Assembly (NCBI GenBank): GCA_036939355.1
Contig: JALLAP010000789.1
Coordinates: forward strand, 1-10,371
From: Thalassiosira profunda
Taxonomy: Eukaryota > Bacillariophyta > Thalassiosirophyceae > Thalassiosirales > Thalassiosiraceae
DNA length: 10,371 nt
Direction: 5' to 3'
Made by a program: the position numbers and the translations under genes
The notes under the pieces: generated by a model
The model's database searches: none
What the model saw: only the letters and a program-made list of their open reading frames with translations
What the model was told of the DNA's origin: nothing
In this document: piece after piece, positions 604 to 10,371 of the stretch
How positions within the stretch are numbered: the first letter of the stretch is position 1
How the letters are laid out: each line of letters begins with the position of its first letter

Positions 604-1111
604 CTATCGGAGATCCCACTCGGGAATGGGCTCTTCGGCATTCCACAATTCTTCGAAGTAACACAGCTGACTCGCCGCTCCCTGCTGCTCGTCCGACAGT
701 CCCTCCCAGTACAAGCCTTCCGACTCTGGCTTCGGTCCATCGTTGTCCCACGTGGTCTCGTCCCATCCGAGAGTAGTGAGATGCTGATCGAGTCCAATAT
801 CTTCCATCTCCTCCCACCAGTAGCCGAAGTAATGATTGACGTGACAGTCCCACTTGTCGTCGCCAAATCCAAGAGAAATTGCTCCCGACTGGGCATCGTC
901 GTACAGCTCATCAAATATGAAATCCTCGAGCTCGTTGTTGAGAGGGCTGTTCCAGGTCTGCGCAAAAGATATCGTGTGTGTTTGTTTAAGTGAGCGAAGG
1001 CAGAAGAACGGTATGGTGTGACGTTGCACTTTCTGAACTTACCTCCGCGGTGTACCCCAAATCAACTTGCGCTACCTCCTGATCCTCCTCCGTCAGTTCC
1101 GACCAAGCTAT
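604..1111 (-). other. Three W-x2-(L/M)-x10-LGY-x4-W repeats at the C-terminus (exons 8-9)
   Basis: The units are WSELTEEDQEVAQVDLGY then TAETW; WEEMEDIGLDQHLTTLGW then DETTW; and WEGLSDEQQGAASQLCY then FEELW. Spacing is nearly constant: Trp, 14-15 residues to the L-G/C-Y/W core, and Trp 5 residues later. The first unit is created by splicing exon 8 to exon 9 across intron 958-1042 (phase 0), and the tail is strongly acidic. From memory, short repeats like this recur in diatom extracellular proteins; I know of no assigned function. Confidence 0.75.
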
Positions 1112-4100
1112 CTGAGCGACGAGTAGGGCAAACGAGAAGATGAGCAAAGGCGGCGATTGGACACACAAACGTGCCGTGAAGAACTCACATATCTCTTCCC
1201 AGGTGTCTGCAGAGAGACTGGATTCACAGATGCCTCCTTTGTCATAAATTGTATCTTGCTGTCCGGCGCGACAGGTGACAGCGAGTCAAAGTCCCCCGGA
1301 TTTTCGTACGCAAACACAGATCCAGTGTCCTGTCCGTGAATGAGGGTGGCACCCACAAAGAGGTCAAAGTCATTGATTGCAACTGCAGTCCCGAAGCCAA
1401 TATCTGTATCATCGGGAGAAGCAGTCTGGCACTCTCCGAACGTGCCATCATTGTTCTGCCGGTAGATGTAGACCGAGTTGCCAGGCAGCGAGCTGCCTGA
1501 TCTCCCAATCGCGAGATTGCCGTCTTTGAGGGACACAGAGTCTCCAAAGTTTGGCGCTGGCGACGTAATCCCGGGGTCGATGGTTTGAATCGCGACAACT
1601 CCATCTCCCGAAATGTCGTACACAAAGGCCTCAGATGCAGCTCTGGCACCCACAACCACAGTGTCGTCTTCAACGGCAACGCTGAAGCCAAAGAGCGAGG
1701 TGGCGTCCGGATAGGTGACATTGCCAAACTGTTGCCAATCATCTTCTTGCTTGTACACGAAGAAGGCTCCGTTATTCTGTTCTCCATTGAACGGCGCCCC
1801 AACGACCACAGTATTATTTTCACCGAGGGCGACGTCGTACCCAAAGTTGCCAAAGCTTTGACTTTGCGTTACGTCAGGACGAAATGTCTCCACGAGGCCC
1901 CAGTCATCGTTTGCACTAGGCTCGTACAAGTACGCTAGTCCTTGGCCTTGACGAGCTGCGGTAGCGCCAACGGCGAGATAGCCCTGCATTGGAGTATTCA
2001 TTGCAGTTAAATGAGGTCAACCAGTCGGAATCGCAGCATCGTTGTACAAGACAATAGCAAAAACACACCTGTTCATTCATTGCAACCGAAATACCAAACT
2101 GCCCCTCCTCGTCTTCAACCGCGCCATTCTCGGGAAATAATTCCTCCACTATGGTGAATTCATCATTAGACGGTCCACGCTTGTAAATGTAGACAGCGCC
2201 AGTTTTGACGCCTGAATCATTGCGGAAATGTTAGAATCAACGAAGAATGAGAAACAGACTCGGAGCAGCCAATACGAAAGCTCACCACCAACAAATTGAT
2301 CCGGACATCCCACAGCAGCGTAGTAAATCCCTGAAAGTTCGGGAAGAACCTCTACAATTGCCACGCCCTCTCCGCACTTTGCAAGCTCCTGGTTGGTGGG
2401 AGTCAGTTGTTGACCTTGAATCCAGCTACCATCATCAAGGAAGTCGAAGACGAATGCTGCCCCGGTGCTGTTGGTGCCTGGGGCACCCACCAATGCGAAA
2501 TCAAAGGCGAGGGCCACGTCGTAACCAAGTTGGGATCCTGCCTCTGGCGGTTCAAATTGCTCCCCAGTCTCCGCGAATGGTTGACAAGGCTCCTCTGGTG
2601 TTGGTGTGGGGGTGGGAGGCGGTGTGGGAGGAGGCGCCGGCGGGTTCGTCGGTGGCGGGGTGGGTGGAGTCGGGGGAGGGGTGGGAGGTGGAGTTTGAGG
2701 CGGGGTCGGTGGCGGCGTGGACGGTGGGTTCGTCGGTCCACGCGTGGGGGGCGGGGTGGGAGGAGGCGTCGTTGGTGGACTCGTCGGTGGCGGCGTGGAC
2801 GTGGGAGGCGGGGTGGGCGGTGGAGTTTGAGGCGGGGTCGGTGGCGGCGTGGACGGTGGGTTCGTGGGTCCGCGCGTCGTCGGCGGAGCAGTGGGCCCGC
2901 GCGTCGGAGTCCGACTGGGTCCCTTCGTGGGCTTTCGCGTGGGCTGGGTCGTTGGAGTGTGTGGTCCGGCGCTCCTGTGTGGAGAAGAGATTGCAACGTG
3001 AGGGAGAGTGCGACGAAAAGCAGAGGAAATGTGGATGAATGAACGACGTACGGAGATTCAGTCGTCGGCATGTAGGACGGAGATTCAGTCGTCGGCGTGT
3101 AGGAAGGCGTGAACGTAGGGTAGTTCGTTCTGTGGTTGCAATCAGAACAGCAAGATATGTGAGAGGATGATCTTTGCAAAAGAGACGGCATTGGCTGTTT
3201 CACTGGCACAAGGAAACTTACGGAGAGAGCGTCGGCGTCAACGTGCTGCAGTCATACGTTGAAAGAGTTCAATTGCGAGCAAAGAGGTGAGCATCGCAGA
3301 TAATCGCACCACAACTCAAGTCTTCTGCCAGGGCACTCACGGCGAGATTGTTGGGAAGAACGTGGGATAGTACGTTTCCTCCTTCTTGCACTGCAGGTGA
3401 ACATGAATGGGACGAAGTCAGTTGTGTTGCTTGTCCATAAAAGAGGTAAGATTGAAGCAGCATCAGACGTACCTTCCACCGCTTGCACTTCCCATGGTGA
3501 TCGTCGCTCCCGGACCACCCGGAGGACCAATCGTCACTCCCAGACCACCCAGAGGACCCAGCGGACCAATCGTCATCGCTCCCAGACCACCCCGAGGTCC
3601 AATCGTCGCTCCCAGACCACGCTGAGGACCAATCGTCGTCACTCCCAGACCACGACGAGGACTTGGATCCCTTTCCCCTCTTGGACCCCTTCGACCTCTT
3701 CCTGGCCTTGCTCTTGCCGCTCTTGCCGCCACTCCAGCGGTCGTCCCTTCGGCCCAGCGCCCGTTCGCGGCCGCTGCCGCCGGAGGCGAACCCGGCCGCG
3801 AAGCTGGCGGCGCTGCCTCCCTTGGCAATGCCGTTCTTCTTTTTCATGCCATCGGCGGTGCCGCTGGCCCACCATCCGTCGGGCGACCACCCGTCGTCGC
3901 CCCAGTACTCAACGCACACGCAGCCGGGCTTGCCCCACCAGCCGTCGCTGCTTGGACTCCACGCGCCGTCCCAGCCACCGTGCTTCTGTTTCTTCTTCTC
4001 CTTCTCTACGTGTTTTATCTGCTTCTCGAGTTGGATCTTCTTCTCCTTCTTGGTCATGCTCGTGAGATCCTCAAGGATCTTGGCGTTCTTCTTGGAGTCG

Positions 4101-4594
4101 TCTTTGTCCCTGGCGTCCCCGTTCCGGTTGGCGTCCCTGCCGATGAGCTTCTCTTGCTGCCGCGCGGTCAGTTTGGCGAACTCTTTCTTCTCCTGCTTCG
4201 TCATGCCCGCGAGGGGGTCTTTCCCCTGGGACTTCTTCTCGTCCTCCTCCTTCTGCTTGGACTTCTTCTGGACCATCTTGTTCTTCTTCTTCTTGCCGAG
4301 CTCCCGCGCGGTCAACATTCTGTCTTGGTCCTCCTCCAGTTCCTCTCCGGCATCGACGTCGAGGTCCTCCTCCTCTGTTCCAGCCTCGCCGTTCCGCTGG
4401 TTCCGCTTGCGGTGGATCGACAGCAGGTTGCTCCTCCCGCCATCGTCCAGCGCATCGTCTGGGTTGGCCGTCAGCAACATCGCGGCCTCTTCGTGCAGCG
4501 CGGCGGCGGGCGCCAGCAGCAGCAGCGCGGCGGCGCAGAGGGCGCGGGGCCGCGGCAGGCGCCGAGTAGCGATCGTCGGTGGCATTGTGCTCAT
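604..4594 (-). CDS. Nine-exon secreted multidomain protein: K-rich/WSGSDD region, PT linker, seven FG-GAP repeats, W-LGY repeats
   Basis: Reconstructed exons are 4594-3473, 3390-3341, 3245-3222, 3129-3052, 2974-2286, 2211-2069, 1983-1189, 1111-1043 and 957-604. Together they give 3324 bases, or 1107 residues plus stop. All eight introns (74-95 bases) are GT-AG with GTRNGY-like donors, and all phases match. In order, the protein has a signal peptide (residues 1 to about 32), an acidic then Lys-rich region (about 70-205), a W/G/C stretch (207-245), a Lys/Ser stretch (288-312), five WSGSDD repeats (314-366), a KCKRWKCKK bridge, a Pro-Thr linker (about 380-555), a seven-repeat FG-GAP propeller (about 571-943) and three W...LGY...W repeats (about 970-1095). 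I see no transmembrane segment after the signal peptide, so it is probably secreted, wall-bound or in the silica deposition vesicle. The N-terminal part recalls diatom cingulins, which alternate Lys-rich and acidic Trp-rich domains; the propeller recalls integrin alpha. The start could instead be Met4 (4585). The function is unknown. Confidence 0.85.
1261..2538 (-). other. Seven FG-GAP repeats (beta-propeller) in exons 5-7
   Basis: Seven units can be counted by their core (F/Y)G-x-x-V-A followed by a hydrophobic VGA strand. They are GYDVALAFDFALVGAPG, GEGVAIVEV...YYAAVGCPD, FGISVAMNEQGYLAVGA, FGYDVALGENNTVVVGAP, FGFSVAVEDDTVVVGA, FGDSVSLKDGNLAIG and FGTAVAINDFDLFVGA. Each is followed by a (G/A)-hydrophobic-V-(Y/F) strand such as GAVYIYK or NSVYIYR. 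Repeat 2 is joined across the phase-1 intron 2212-2285, and repeat 3 across the phase-0 intron 1984-2068. Seven copies match a closed seven-bladed propeller like that of integrin alpha. The DxDxDG calcium loop of integrins is absent from the loops I can read. Confidence 0.88.
2687..2865 (-). repeat. 47-base direct repeat with 132-base period in the PT linker
   Basis: Bases 2687-2733 and 2819-2865 are identical over 47 positions and lie 132 bases (44 codons) apart, in frame. Both encode the TNPPSTPPPTPPQTPPP segment. The near-identity suggests a recent in-frame duplication within the linker, so linker length probably varies between alleles or strains. Confidence 0.85.
3050..3104 (-). repeat. 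27-base tandem repeat at the exon 4 splice donor
   Basis: Two 28-base windows starting at 3050 and 3077 differ at one position. They encode PTTESPSYM followed by PTTESP. The left-hand copy carries the splice donor (CC|GTACGT), whereas the other copy reads CCGTCCTAC at the same place and is not a donor. Confidence 0.8.
3500..3655 (-). repeat. Five WSGSDD repeats inside exon 1
   Basis: The minus strand encodes five copies of a W-S-G-S-D-D core, each followed by 2-8 residues such as DWSS, WTS or DWSAGSS. Unit length alternates between about 10 and 14 residues, so the DNA repeat is imperfect (30-42 bases). It follows directly on a Lys/Ser-rich stretch (KSGKSKARKRSKGSKRGKGS). Alternation of basic and acidic-aromatic blocks is known from diatom silica-associated proteins such as cingulins; any assignment to that group here is by composition only. 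Confidence 0.85.
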
Positions 4595-4956
4595 ATCATG
4601 TGCACTTGTCGAAGTTAGGTCTGTATCCCTACGCCGCGCTCCCTACAATGGCCAATGCTTTGCCGGCCTGAAGCGCTTGTGCGCGCGTGTGCGCCTCTCG
4701 GGTCGTAGCAACACAACGGCGCCATGCCGCCCGGGGCGGCGGTCACCCCCAACAAAAGGCTGAAAAATTGCAACTCCCTGGCGCCTGAAAAATTGCAACT
4801 CTACTGTAGGAATCAGTAATATAATAAGGTAGGTATTCCTCCGTAGAGGTTGAGCCAGGGTGAGCGAGCGAGGTGGGGAGCGGGAGGAGGTATCTAGCAG
4901 GAGGGCTCTCTCCGCCCACATTCATCAGCGTGGCACCTATTCACCTCGGCCCCGCT
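4595..4956. promoter_or_regulatory. Divergent intergenic region, presumed promoters of the nine-exon gene and the LYR gene
   Basis: The region is 362 bases between two start codons pointing away from each other, so both promoters and leaders must lie here. It holds a pair of identical 17-base direct repeats (4760-4776 and 4785-4801) followed by an AT-rich stretch (about 4812-4836) containing taatataataag, a possible TATA-like element for the plus-strand gene. No transcription start can be fixed from sequence alone. Confidence 0.5.
4760..4801. repeat. Paired 17-base direct repeat in a divergent promoter
   Basis: CTGAAAAATTGCAACTC occurs perfectly at 4760-4776 and 4785-4801, with starts 25 bases apart. 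It is AT-rich within a GC-rich surround. The repeat could be a duplicated binding site or a remnant of a small duplication. Confidence 0.8.
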
Positions 4957-5913
4957 ATGGCACTCTCATCATCGCGGTTATGCTGCCGCGTCGCCGCGGC
5001 CTGGACTCGTCGACGCCCAGTCGCCACCGTCCGACGCACCAACCTCTCTCGACCTGCCACCCACCGCCATCAGCCTTTGACGAAGAGGCGGCAGCATCGT
5101 CCCTTCGCTACCGACCAATTCCAATATATGTCCTCCAAGGAGCTGGCCTCGCTGCAAACCAATCTGCTCAAAGAGGCCTCCTACCTCACCCGGACGCTCT
5201 ACCGCAAGTGCCTCAAATCGGTCCGGGTGCTGGCGGCAGGAAATGCCCGCGACGAATCCGACTTCTCCGAGCGGGAGAACAGCGAGCTCGATCAATTTGG
5301 AGAGGACGGCGTTAATCTGGATCGGATATCGATGGCCCCGCCCGTCAATCGACAAAACGAGCTGGCCTCCCGCGCCAACTACTACAAGGCCTTTGCGAGG
5401 GAGCACTTTGATGGCCACTGGAATTTATTAGGCGCGCACGGATTTCACATTGGCAAAGAGGGGAACATGTCCCACGGACTGGGTGCGGCCGGGGGCAGAG
5501 GAGGGGATTGGAATCAATATCAGGGCGGGCATCATCACTTGGGCAGCCAGATGGGGGCGCAGTGCGGGCAGGGCGATGCATTGAGAGAAAGCGCAGCAAA
5601 GGGCGAACCTCAACTATGGCGCGAGGAGCAGGTGCAGCAATTCATTTACCTCCTGCGGTCCGGAGAGGAGAAGCGGAGGTGGATTCTGAGCGACTACGAG
5701 TTCAATGACCCTTGCAACTGTACGAAGGAGGATGGTGCAGAAGAAAGCCATGGGTGGCCGGACGAGCTGGAGGAGAGGCTAACAGCATTCGAAGAGCAAT
5801 CGAACTCGCTGGTGAGGGAGATGTATCGAAGAAAAGGCTGGATGCACTCGAGCGGGCATGGGCAGAGCAAGAGCGACGAGGATGATTTTTTCAGCGACAG
5901 TGACTCTGACTAG
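4957..5913 (+). CDS. LYR-motif (Complex1_LYR-like) mitochondrial protein
   Basis: An intronless frame encodes 318 residues from the ATG at 4957. An in-frame ATG at 4873 would add 28 residues, but the start at 4957 gives a typical matrix presequence: MALSSSRLCC, then Arg/Ser/Thr/Ala-rich with no acidic residue for about 50 positions, ending RPFAT. The LYR signature lies at residues 81-83 within TRTLYRKCLKSVR, preceded by a helix (ELASLQTNLLKEA) and followed by YYKAFAREHF, which fits the conserved downstream Phe helix of the family. LYR proteins work in the mitochondrial matrix as iron-sulfur transfer or respiratory-complex assembly factors, usually bound to acyl-carrier protein. At about 318 residues it is far longer than usual LYRM proteins (80-130): a Gly/His-rich middle (about 165-210), a charged helical stretch and an acidic Ser/Asp tail (SDEDDFFSDSDSD) follow. 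The partner complex cannot be told from sequence. Confidence 0.75.
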   Translation: MALSSSRLCCRVAAAWTRRRPVATVRRTNLSRPATHRHQPLTKRRQHRPFATDQFQYMSSKELASLQTNLLKEASYLTRTLYRKCLKSVRVLAAGNARDESDFSERENSELDQFGEDGVNLDRISMAPPVNRQNELASRANYYKAFAREHFDGHWNLLGAHGFHIGKEGNMSHGLGAAGGRGGDWNQYQGGHHHLGSQMGAQCGQGDALRESAAKGEPQLWREEQVQQFIYLLRSGEEKRRWILSDYEFNDPCNCTKEDGAEESHGWPDELEERLTAFEEQSNSLVREMYRRKGWMHSSGHGQSKSDEDDFFSDSDSD

Positions 5914-6045: not shown

Positions 6046-7155
6046 TTACTCCCCGGCCTCCTCCTCCAGCGGGCCGTCCACCCTCCAATCAATCGGCGCA
6101 TACCCCCGCTTCACCAACTCGGCGTTCGCCCTGCTGAAACACCGACTGCCCATGAAGGGGCTGCTCGTCTTCGTGGCCCCCAGCGGCGAGGGATGGGAGC
6201 ACGTGATCACCGCGTGCTTGGACCGCTTGCTGCCACTGTATTTGGCCAGGACGGTCTGCGCCTTTGCGGAGGCTGGTTTGCCCCAGAGGAGGAATACCAC
6301 TCCGCCCGATCCTTCGTCGTTTGCATCCCGTTCGATGACGGCGCTGATCACTCCATCAGTGAATTGCTCCCATCCCTTCTTCGAGTGGCTCGCCGCCTCC
6401 CCGCGCCGCACCGTGAGCACGTTGTTGAGCAGCAGCACCCCCTGCTTCGCCCATCGCTCTAAGTTGCCATGCTGCGGAATGGAAAATCCCTCCACGTTTT
6501 CATCGTTGTTCAGCTCCTTGTAAATGTTGCGGAGCGACGGCGGGATTTTGACGCCCCGCAGCACGGAGAAGGAGACGCCGTGGCCCTGGTTGGGCTGGTG
6601 GTAGGGATCCTGGCCGACGATGACCACTGCCCATCATTTGCCAAAACATTTTGTTAGCAATGCGTGCATCAACATTGAAGCGAAACAGGTTGCAGCATCG
6701 AGATCCACTTACCCTTCACCTTGTTAAGAGGGGTTAGGTTCAGCGCCGAGAACGTGAGCTCGGGCGGCGGATACACAGTCTTTGAGGCGCTGTAGTATGA
6801 ACGTGAGCATCAATTATTGCAAAACCAAGCATCGCATGCACCAACACACATGCACCATCAACAACGCACCGCTCCTTCGCCACAAACTGCGCCAGGCTCG
6901 CAAACTTCGCCGTGCCGAAACACTTCTTCTCCAACGCCCGGCGCCACGACGGATCCGTCGCCGGCCCGTCGTGCTCGTGCAGGCACGAGAGGAGCGTGGC
7001 CGTCTCGTCCGATAGAGATTTGGAGGTCGTTGTTGTCACAGAGGAGTCCGGGGCGTGACCACCCGCTTCGACGGCCCCGACGCGGCCCCGGCGCCCTCGG
7101 CGCGGCCCCGCTTGCTCCCCGACTTGGACTTGGGGGCGAAGAAGTTGGTGATCAT
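6046..7155 (-). CDS. UNG: Uracil-DNA glycosylase (family 1), three exons, one probable frame error
   Basis: Exons are 7155-6870, 6789-6713 and 6626-6046. Intron 6790-6869 is phase 2 and 6627-6712 is phase 1, both GT-AG. Family-1 UDG removes uracil from DNA to start base-excision repair. Visible motifs are KTVYPPPELTFSAL, the catalytic-water motif GQDPYHQ (Asp about 128), LLLNNVLTVRRGEAASHS, GWEQFTD, VFLLWGKPASAK and the DNA-intercalation motif SHPSPLGAT. The final helix ends SRANAELVKRGYAPIDW. The N-terminus MITNFFAPKSKS resembles a PCNA-interacting peptide as in nuclear UNG2. Exon 1 as written hits a stop (7036-7038), while the homologous part (SWRRALEKKCF...SLAQFVAKER) is in the next frame. 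Adding one base, for example to the C4 run at 7050-7053, restores frame and gives 314 residues, normal for the family. A 59-base intron would also restore frame but has a poor acceptor. Upstream in-frame Met codons (to about 7414) could give an organellar form. Confidence 0.93.
7039..7060 (-). other. Probable one-base frame break in UNG exon 1
   Basis: The frame starting MITNFF runs out at 7036. The frame that carries conserved UNG sequence is offset by one base and is entered somewhere between 7039 and 7155. The homopolymer of four C on the minus strand (7050-7053) is the most likely site of a lost base. With this base the exon has 287 coding bases, which fits the phase-2 splice at 6870. Confidence 0.65.
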
Positions 7156-7462: not shown

Positions 7463-9703
7463 ATGATGGCCGTCCGCATCCCCTGCGCACGCGCCATCAT
7501 CCGTCGCCTCGTCGCGCGGCCATGCTTGCGCCCATCGTGCGGTTGTAGGCACTTGTCGATGGCGGCGCACGAAGAGGAGAAGGGCGCAGTGGACCCGAGA
7601 GACAGCTCCGAAATATTGCAGCGACTGTACGAAATGGCGAAACCGGAGCGGAAGCTCATCCTCGCCTCGGCGGGAACGCTGGCCGTCACCTCGTCGATCA
7701 CCCTGCTGCTGCCCTACGCCTGCGGGCACGTCCTGGATGCGGCCATCCTCGAGGCCACTGTCCCAGGCAGCGGTGGTGGAGAACAGTTTAGCCCCTTCGT
7801 GGTGGCCACGGGCCTATTTGGATTGACCGGTACCGCGGGGCTGGGCGTGTACGCCCGGTCTCTGATGTTGAACATCGCAGGCAATCGAATGGTCAGACGA
7901 TGCGACGGCACCTCTTCGCTTCCATCGTATCGCAGGAGAGCGCCTTCTTCGACACGACAGAATCGGGGGATTTGCTGTCGAGATTAACGAACGATGCATA
8001 CTTTGTCAAGAGCGCTGTAACGACGGAGGCGGTGGCGGGATTGCGGGGCGTGGTGATGAGCGTGGGCTCGACGTCGCTGCTGTTCTACACGTCGCCTACA
8101 CTTGCAATGGTATCGCTGATGTCAATACCGCCAGTGTTCTTGATGGCGAGAACTGTGGGGAGGACAATAAAGGCGAAACAAAAGGATGTGCAATCGTTGC
8201 ACGGCAAAGCAACGGATGTTGCCGAGGAAGTGTTTGGCGGCATCAAGACGGTGCAGCTGTTCAATTCGGAGAGGTTGGAATATGATAGATATTCGGAAGC
8301 GATCACCAAAGCACACGACAAGGAGATATCCGTTGGGAGGACGAAAGCCGCCTTTGACGGCGTCGTCCACGTGGCCGCCAACGGAGCAATTCTACTTGTC
8401 ATGGGATACGGCGGAACATTGGTGTTGGCGGGCGAACTCTCTGCCGGCGATTTGACTGGATTCCTCATGTATTCATTGTTGATGGCCGGCAATGTGAGCT
8501 CCCTAAGCGGAACGTATACTGAGATAATGAAATCTCTCTCGGCAGCTGGAAGAGTGTTTGACATCATAGATCGGGAGCCCGAGATACCTTCCTCGTTGAA
8601 ACTGAGGGCGGTTGGAGAAAGCGAAACTGGTGATAAGAGATGCGACCCTGGGCACAAGGACGCAATATCGATACGTTTCGCGAATGTCGGCTTTGCCTAC
8701 CCTGTACGACCAGACGCACCGGTGCTTGGTCCTAATTTCACACTCGACATCAATGCAGGCGAGAACATATCCTTGGTAGGTGGGAGCGGCTCAGGCAAGA
8801 GCACATGCGCTCTGCTTCTTGCTCGGCTGTACAACATTGACGAAGGAGCAATTTACCTCAACGATTGCAACATAATGGATATGGAGCCATCCGTCTTGCG
8901 GNTACAACATTGACGAAGGAGCAATTTACCTCAACGATTGCAACATAATGGATATGGAGCCATCCGTCTTGCGGCGGCAGATTGGGGTGGTGGCGCAGGA
9001 GCCTCTACTCTTTGCCGGGACGATTGCGGAAAACATTCGCTACGGACGGGCAGATGCAACAGATGAAGAGGTTCGGGAGGCTGCCAGGGCTGCTCATGTA
9101 ACTTCTTTCACAGATGACCTACCCCTCGGAATGGAGACGCAGGTTGGGTCGCGTGGCACGCAGCTGAGGTAAGACTGAGTGTCAGAGGCACGCATTCCTT
9201 TTTGGTTAGCTTACCCTGAGATGCCATTGCACTTCACAAAAGTGGCGGACAGAAGCAAAGAGTTGCTATCGCGAGAGTGATGCTACTGAACCCACCCGTC
9301 TGTGTGCTGGACGAAGGTACGATCTTCCTTTTGCACTTCAGCTCTCTTATCTGAAAACTCCACGCCTCATGCATGCATTGGGAACTCTTTTTCAAAGCTA
9401 CATCAGCGTTGGACGCCAAAAGCGAGTATCACATCAACCAGGCACTGAAGGAGATGACCAAAGGCAGAACCGTGATATCGATTGCGCATCGTCTCTCCAC
9501 AATACGAGAGGCAGACCGTATTGCAATGATAAAAAATGGGACAGTGGCAGAGATTGGCACCTANTCTCTCCACAATACGAGAGGCAGACCGTATTGCAAT
9601 GATAAAAAATGGGACAGTGGCAGAGATTGGCACCTATGAAGAACTGATCGAGAAAGAGGGCGCATTCCACAGGCTTGTGCGGCAGCAGCTCACAGATGTT
9701 TAG
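7463..9703 (+). CDS. Half-size ABC transporter, ABCB/MDL type, probably mitochondrial
   Basis: Exons are 7463-9168, 9243-9316 and 9398-9703. Introns 9169-9242 (phase 2) and 9317-9397 (phase 1) are GT-AG. After removing two 72-base assembly duplications with their N and adding one base near 7893-7900, the product is about 646 residues, the size of one TMD-NBD half. The N-terminus [20 protein letters not shown] is Arg-rich without acids, as in mitochondrial presequences; a plastid cannot be excluded. Six membrane spans are plausible. The nucleotide-binding domain shows an A-loop Tyr (GFAYPVRPD), Walker [10 protein letters not shown] (8779-8805), Q-loop VVAQEPLLF, signature SGGQKQR formed across intron 9169-9242, Walker B VCVLDEATSALD formed across intron 9317-9397, and H-loop ISIAHRLST. 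All catalytic residues are present. It resembles ABCB10/MDL1 and TAP exporters, which dimerise and pump peptides or metabolites out of the matrix; the substrate is unknown. It shares a promoter region with UNG. Confidence 0.9.
7890..7902 (+). other. Frame break in the ABC transporter membrane domain
   Basis: The upstream frame reads GNRMVRR and then leaves homology, running to a stop at about 7987. The next frame begins [18 protein letters not shown] at 7900, exactly the family's expected continuation. There is no room for an intron. One base missing between 7893 and 7900 would join them as NRMVRRMRRHLF. Confidence 0.8.
8830..8974 (+). repeat. 72-base duplication around N at 8902 (assembly join)
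   Basis: Bases 8830-8901 and 8903-8974 are identical and separated by one N. Deleting one copy plus the N (73 bases) restores a continuous NBD from [11 protein letters not shown] through [14 protein letters not shown]. This is the signature of two contig ends that overlap but were joined without merging. Confidence 0.95.
9492..9636 (+). repeat. 72-base duplication around N at 9564 (assembly join)
   Basis: Bases 9492-9563 and 9565-9636 are identical with one N between. Removing 73 bases restores [19 protein letters not shown] continuing to [15 protein letters not shown] and the natural stop at 9701. The length equals that of the duplication at 8830-8974. Confidence 0.95.
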
Positions 9704-9933
9704 GCAGAGGGGTTAGTCCTCTATTGCATCGACCAGTCAACGAATGAGCACTCAGTACCCATGTAACACCATCTGTCTCTACCCCAAACCCCAAATTGCC
9801 TTCAGTTGTTTCATATGCACCGCTCACTCTGTTTCATCCCAACACATGCATAACATTAGTGCGCTCTTTGGCGCACTGCATCACTTCTTCACACCGATTG
9901 GATCTCATCATCTTGTGCACAACTCTCATGCAT
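9704..9933. other. Intergenic region between convergent 3' ends
   Basis: These 230 bases separate the ABC stop codon from the FUN14 stop codon on the opposite strand. They are CA/TC-rich and contain no open frame with splice support, no repeat and no RNA-like structure that I can see. Confidence 0.5.
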
Positions 9934-10371
9934 TCAACCTCTCAATCCCAACATGAAACCCAATCCAAACCCACTCGCGTCCGGAATGTTGGCTGTCACG
10001 ATCTTCTTCGCCTTCTCCCAGTATCTCTTCAAATCCTTCTCGGTAATTTCGCCATCGTTGTCCTTTGGGCGTTGCGCATTGACCAATCATCGATACATGA
10101 ATATGAGTGGTTGCAATTAGAAGCAGTTGAGCAGATTGGCGCTTCAGCAAGGAAGGTGATTGCATCTCAAACCAACTCACCGTATCCACCGCATTCGCCA
10201 CTGTCTTCTCAACTTCCTTCCAGTTCACATCGACAATCCCCTTGTGCGCCAGCCCCTGCAGCGCCAGGAATCCCAGGCCGGCGACGAACGCGATTCCCTT
10301 GCCGATCTTCTTGGCCGTGATGGCCGAGCAGTAGCCCATGACGGAGGAGAGGGTGAGCTTTTGCAGCAGCG
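9934..10371 (-). CDS. FUN14-domain membrane protein with an EF-hand loop (5' end beyond window)
   Basis: Exons are >10371-10181 and 10062-9934. The intron 10063-10180 (118 bases, phase 0) has donor ACG|GTGAGT and acceptor AAAG|GAC. Exon 1 has no stop up to the edge, and the residues before the Met at 10339 (LLQKLTLSSV) fit the family, so the true start is probably outside the window. Exon 1 shows the FUN14 pattern MGYCSAITAKKIGKG, a hydrophobic span (IAFVAGLGFLALQGLA), KGIVDVNWKEVEK and AVDT. Exon 2 ends SGFGLGFMLGLRG, the Gly-rich second membrane span. FUN14 proteins sit in the outer mitochondrial membrane; FUNDC1 is a mitophagy receptor. Between the spans, splicing creates a loop D-T-D-N-D-G-E-I-T-E-K-D, which matches canonical EF-hand calcium ligands at positions 1, 3, 5, 6 (Gly), 8 and 12 (Asp instead of the usual Glu). 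No N-terminal LC3-binding motif can be judged because that part is missing. Confidence 0.85.

Follow-up and report, generated by a model that had tools for sequence, protein, structure and literature searches.

A nine-exon diatom-type gene joining a charged, lysine-rich half to an FG-GAP propeller and a four-repeat tail: a candidate secreted tether

We analyzed a 10,371-nucleotide (nt) stretch of DNA, contig JALLAP010000789.1 (the window; contig C788 among the 1366 contigs of the 21.8-Mb source genome G000), and found on its minus strand, at 604..4594, a nine-exon gene for a protein of 1107 residues, its splicing rebuilt from the DNA. The predicted protein consists of a likely signal peptide, a charged N-terminal half, a Pro-Thr (PT) linker, a seven-bladed FG-GAP_2 propeller, and a tail module of about 145 residues and four repeats, for which we coined the name LGY4. 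It is probably secreted and serves as some kind of tether in the wall or at the surface, and the whole explanation that we favor, tentatively, is that a diatom-like alga secretes it as a modular tether. The signal peptide would give entry to the secretory route, and the N-terminal half, with its acidic, Lys-rich and Trp/Gly segments, cingulin-type lysine region and WSGSDD repeats, would lodge as a polyampholyte in the wall, with silica or its anionic organic matrix as the likeliest site. The PT linker, probably O-glycosylated, would act as a stalk keeping the folded C-terminal half off the wall, and the partner bound by the propeller and LGY4 would be a protein or glycan outside the cell. Secretion, wall attachment, glycosylation and partner binding are steps that we infer; anchoring on silica or its matrix, judged from composition and a single lysine cluster, is plausible but a little less likely than not. 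To our knowledge, the attachment of the diatom silica wall to organic layers and partners is poorly understood, and a single protein with one half resembling silica proteins and the other folded for recognition would give a direct, testable wall link.

Gene model and syntenic copy

The nine exons (4594-3473, 3390-3341, 3245-3222, 3129-3052, 2974-2286, 2211-2069, 1983-1189, 1111-1043 and 957-604) are separated by introns of 74-95 nt that are GT-AG in eight of eight cases, and exons 2, 3 and 4 are tiny (50, 24 and 78 nt). Spliced translation reproduces exactly the nine exons, eight phase-consistent introns and 1107-residue frame proposed in an earlier note on this DNA, and the model also fits a second copy of the gene on contig C702. 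This copy is syntenic, both of its flanks aligning with the window flanks (about 86% and 80% identity), and may come from a divergent haplotype or a co-binned sister strain, or be a homoeologue. With the window junctions transferred by sequence, the C702 copy spells 1095 residues in nine exons with the same domain order and GT-AG ends at all eight introns. Its exon lengths differ from those of the window by -45, 0, 0, 0, -21, 0, +30, 0 and 0, the three non-zero differences all being multiples of three, while its intron lengths differ by -7, -6, 0, 0, +10, -5, +12 and 0, so that five of the eight are changed, two of these five by a multiple of three. The ratio of nonsynonymous to synonymous change (dN/dS, omega) between the two copies is 0.25 over 1078 codons. 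By region, the four blocks of the N-terminal half after the signal peptide give 0.09-0.21 (each on 4-9 synonymous changes), the linker 0.35, the propeller 0.27 and the tail 0.09; the signal peptide, on 26 codons only, gives 1.26. Because the C702 copy keeps the frame, the GT-AG introns and a low omega while intron lengths shift, the comparison of the two sequences strongly supports one coding gene under purifying selection on each half. Homologues in which the two halves are always separate were not seen: residues 34-204 and 204-374, searched against the source genome, matched at C788 and C702 only, and the N-terminal half is fused to the C-terminal half in both.

Tracts of the window at 3825-3611, 5700-5551 and 3174-3025 are 98-100% identical to locus L005, in an alignment whose 150-column segments range from 56% up; the longest identical run is 215 nt, and intron 3 is identical over 92 nt. 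These tracts may mean that two copies within one genome have undergone gene conversion, or that the assembly is a mosaic. Near-duplicate contigs recur in the genome (C788/C702, C220/C215, C70/C1066 and perhaps C613/C131, the last from near-equal scores only), which may point to an allodiploid-like genome or to two co-binned strains. The Fistulifera genome is allodiploid.

Charged N-terminal half and lysine-enriched region

The likely signal peptide (residues 1-33, 4496..4594; this and the following features are on the minus strand) has, as read by eye, a clear hydrophobic core and an expected cut after PAAA, and the core is kept in the C702 copy; the earlier claim of a secreted-looking protein is supported. 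It is followed by an acidic segment with 32% Asp+Glu (residues 34-92, 4319..4495; omega 0.20 on few changes), a Lys-rich charged segment with 27% Lys (residues 93-210, 3965..4318), and a Gly/Trp-rich segment containing CVC (residues 211-290, 3725..3964; omega about 0.19 for residues 211-310). A lysine-enriched region (LER) with three K[SG][SG]K motifs (residues 291-311, 3662..3724) then leads into five WSGSDD repeats (residues 312-374, 3473..3661; omega 0.09). The linker (residues 375-553, 2590..3390) is spelled by exons 2-4 and the start of exon 5, the coordinates including the introns, and has 42% Pro and 27% Thr. Both the repeats and the linker agree with the earlier description, the five WSGSDD copies being exact; the C702 copy has three exact copies and one near copy.

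In passages of PMC5501833, silaffin-like proteins are screened for by a signal peptide and repeated KXXK (X = S or G) motifs 1-6 residues apart, and in passages of PMC9650480 an LER is defined by at least two such motifs at most four residues apart. In the window protein, KGSK occurs at 302 and 308, two residues apart, which places the pair within this two-motif rule, and KSGK at 291 lies seven residues before the next motif. The C702 copy also has three K[SG][SG]K motifs. The mature part has the tripeptide RXL at 92, 97 and 278, and the signal peptide has two more, at 11 and 17.

FG-GAP propeller and LGY4 module

Seven FG-GAP repeats align across residues 564-944, as had been claimed, and the repeat region as a whole takes up residues ~564-945 in exons 5-7 (1255..2559, minus strand). 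The Pfam family FG-GAP_2 (PF14312) matches with an E-value of 4e-20 and 72.2 bits against a cut-off of 23, four stretches passing individually, and it is the sole Pfam family above cut-off in the window protein. Residues 560-1107 matched 440 proteins. Among the best 120 of the 440, eight carry an organism name, seven bacterial and one the diatom Stephanocyclus meneghinianus (P0034, ACHAWX_004128, partial), and the W-LGY repeat pattern occurs in none of these best 120. The FG-GAP part of P0034 (residues 722-1102) models as an all-beta structure of 27 strands, with blocks at a predicted local distance difference test (pLDDT) score of 60-94; elsewhere confidence in the model is low, and over its whole length the mean is 47.7 and the predicted template-modeling score 0.46. 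By E-value (4.6e-13 to 1.2e-10), its seven best PDB matches are integrin entries, which we take to be alpha chains. Their template-modeling (TM) scores are modest (0.20-0.26 by query, 0.27-0.46 by target), and the eighth match, a Sec12 propeller, has a target TM-score of 0.70, above those of the integrins. The fold of the window propeller is thus probably integrin-type, judging from this relative, and that much of the earlier claim of an integrin-like propeller stands. Membership of the integrin family is not supported by the blades as read from their residues: measured against the criteria in passages of PMC3192720, the DxDxDG-type integrin calcium loop, expected in blades 5-7, is present in none of the seven, and the Cage motif, expected there in every blade, is found in two of seven by the strict pattern and five of seven by a loosened one.

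LGY4 (residues 964-1107, 604..1200, minus strand) is encoded by the end of exon 7 and exons 8 and 9, and consists of four W..L....Q..A..LGY....W-type repeats. Three had been counted previously; the degenerate second repeat (F..L....Q...LGF....WDC) had been missed. The tail also carries W[DN]C...H and [LIVM]C[YFWH]. A protein search with residues 960-1107 (78 candidates, E up to 1) matched three proteins: P0121, FisN_31Lh089 of Fistulifera solaris (P0122), and the frame of a MATE transporter with many repeats (P0123). We aligned 14 modules, namely those of the window and C702, two from Fistulifera, three from P0121 and seven from the source genome (C965_a being truncated at the first repeat); weaker or partial matches of the genome and P0123 were omitted. 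L973, W992, E1001, W1026, C1028, H1032, W1038, L1053, W1060, W1074, L1077, A1085 and C1089, two of them cysteines, are invariant in all 14. No Pfam family matched exon 9, and the Pfam matches to P0121, P0122 and five frames of the source genome stayed below cut-off except for the PT repeat. The LGY repeats of P0122 each model as short helices (pLDDT blocks 61-85). The alignments show LGY4 to be a conserved unit; it is apparently an undescribed module without a convincing Pfam match, and its description would aid the annotation of "hypothetical" diatom proteins. In P0123, residues 1059-1116, within the LGY repeats, score above the cut-off for PF10123 (Mu-like prophage I protein; 27.4 against 25.2 bits), probably a false match.

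In the source genome, the tail has at least 22 matches, spread over 9 contigs, and FG-GAP_2 at least 49, over 19 contigs; among the matches listed only C788 and C702 are shared by the two sets. The propeller and LGY4 also occur apart from one another, in this genome and in relatives. Inspected by eye, a frame on C220 starts like a signal peptide, continues with a Lys-rich block, PT linkers and Cys/Trp domains, and ends in LGY4, and a frame on C215 has the later part of the same plan; the PT repeat is also matched by Pfam. LGY4 is found repeatedly, both in surface-type frames here and in Fistulifera. Seven loci with W-LGY frames (L028-L034, on C965, C220, C215, C1229, C358, C70 and C1066) show PT linkers, Cys/Trp domains and transmembrane or glycosylphosphatidylinositol (GPI)-like tails by eye, and another W-LGY match (L017, C1229:7831-8232) has three internal TGA codons, from an unrecognized intron or a decayed copy. 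Three frames that passed a filter on 32 other FG-GAP loci each have an internal hydrophobic segment and lack the LGY repeat.

Wall tether, alternatives and known systems

The tether is supported by the gene model and the selection on it, the lysine cluster, the PT-bearing silaffin-like proteins of Thalassiosira pseudonana, the C220 plan, the integrin matches of P0034 and the diatom-type genome. According to passages of PMC5501833, PT repeats also occur in 14 T. pseudonana proteins of the silaffin-like or KXXK kind, and in passages of PMC9650480 single LERs of CinW2 directed eGFP to frustule parts. When residues 34-374 of the window protein are shuffled, three K[SG][SG]K motifs anywhere appear in 96 of 10,000 shuffles and three within 18 residues in 1 of 10,000, a P that flatters the cluster, as the test was chosen after the cluster was seen and ignores local richness in K, S and G. 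The following points, like that bias, weigh against our explanation. Pentalysine is present in 11 overlapping windows, but also in 54% of 2,000 shuffles, and carries no weight; the earlier claim of a cingulin-like basic region is supported for the lysine cluster. RXL, offered before as a processing signal, is indeed present, in marginal excess in residues 34-374 (3 against 0.9 expected, P 0.049); as evidence of processing it adds little. Residues 1-430 gave no match at E 0.01 among 7992 candidates scored from 5.8 billion proteins, a search that scored only candidates sharing the most words and can miss relatives, and no link by descent between the N-terminal half and cingulins can therefore be drawn. 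We believe that spliced eukaryotic proteins are thinly represented in that set. In CinW2 1-187, according to passages of PMC9650480, mutation or deletion of the LER did not cause mislocalization. No transmembrane or GPI-type tail was seen on the window protein, and the integrin-type fold was seen in P0034 rather than in the window protein itself. The last such point is that one profile search of the 21.8-Mb bin found no silicon transporter (PF03842); the earlier silica tether keeps its secreted modular protein, with the association to silica at best weakly supported.

Silicon transporters number 3-8 per diatom and 1-2 per parmalean, with none in naked bolidomonads, in passages of PMC10328945. 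The absence may reflect an incomplete bin, which is possible because 18S was also sought in the bin and not found, or a non-silicified relative or unusual alga. The genome is nevertheless probably diatom-type by its gene content, as the earlier note had supposed. It has 32 heat shock factor (HSF)-domain matches, near-duplicate contigs counted, and an expansion of HSFs seems diatom-specific in passages of PMC4827209 (67 in P. tricornutum vs 1-9 in six other algae), although the abstract of another paper gives 16 for a kelp. There are also 32 light-harvesting matches. For one of three light-harvesting queries (C136), the best PDB matches are fucoxanthin proteins, presumably of diatoms, at about 70% identity by eye; the other two, with chains of entry 9vfj on top, are not telling.

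The main alternative, possible if somewhat improbable, is that the secreted protein instead serves adhesion or recognition in mucilage, at the cell surface or on gametes, independently of silica, with the basic half on anionic polysaccharide and the propeller and LGY4 recognizing a partner cell or matrix. The missing silicon transporter fits this, polybasic segments bind many polyanions, and the LGY4 frames on C1229 and C358 end in hydrophobic GPI-like tails (by eye), which therefore places the module at cell surfaces. Integrin-annotated families are also among those responding in sexual stages of Seminavis robusta in passages of PMC7335047. The S/G-spaced lysine cluster, however, is of the frustule-protein kind and exceeds what whole-segment composition predicts. 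A separate question is whether the propeller binds sugars, as an enzyme-like or lectin-like domain, rather than acting as a protein receptor; among the PDB matches of P0034, polysaccharide lyases and sialidases appear lower down, but the top ones by E-value are integrin chains, and we consider sugar binding rather unlikely. An intracellular protein, without a true signal peptide at its N-terminus and with Lys blocks that direct it to the nucleus or nucleolus, would suit the several strong basic clusters, a signal peptide judged by eye and its high omega on few codons, yet it is very unlikely given the core retained in C702, the PT linker and FG-GAP repeats typical of secreted proteins, and the several LGY4 relatives with signal-like starts and transmembrane or GPI-like tails (by eye). 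Two neighboring genes (exons 1-4 and exons 5-9) wrongly fused in the model, as the tiny exons 2-4 and a model known from DNA alone might suggest, are exceedingly improbable, since each of the eight junctions finds its place in the C702 copy with the frame kept and purifying selection on both sides, and the exon 7/8 join falls at the R[YF]..W position of LGY4 homologues; the earlier claim of a single gene thus holds.

Returning to the secreted wall tether, we regard it as unlikely, but worth stating, that a silica-embedded polyampholyte showing an integrin-fold head and a surface-shuffled diatom module, LGY4, gives a single-celled alga with a wall a matrix link like that of integrins. If true, it would offer a genetic approach to the way in which the silica wall joins to the cell or its neighbors.

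Elsewhere in the window, Pfam identifies a uracil-DNA glycosylase (6046-6633, minus), an ABC transporter with membrane and ATPase domains (7795-8880, plus) and a FUN14 protein (9926-10369, minus); a 349-residue open frame (4864-5910, plus) has no Pfam match at E 0.01. Single-N joins at 8902 and 9564 within the ABC transporter gene each lie between copies of a stretch of about 70 bases (by eye; ~8829-8974 and 9495-9637) and look like a scaffolding artifact.

The window protein resembles the cingulins and silaffin-like proteins of T. pseudonana, such as CinW2, in its likely signal peptide, S/G-spaced lysine clusters and RXL tripeptides, and some silaffin-like proteins in its PT repeats. CinW proteins also have Trp-rich stretches. 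Unlike CinW2 (383 residues), it is far longer and has a propeller, LGY4, a long Lys/Glu block and an acidic block, and the likeness is one of composition and motif. It shares seven FG-GAP repeats with the N-terminal propeller of integrin alpha chains, but it differs in having no calcium loop in any of the seven blades and the strict Cage motif in only two, and no further integrin-type domains or membrane segment were seen in its 1107 residues. P0034 has the same propeller family behind a Pro-Thr linker; where the window protein has its basic half, P0034 has RCC1 repeats, and it lacks LGY4. The four-repeat module with its Cys pair is shared by P0122 and other LGY4 proteins, whereas P0122 has two LGY4 copies, a PT linker and a transmembrane segment (by eye), with neither propeller nor basic half. 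The window protein joins known parts in a new way, together with an apparently undescribed module.

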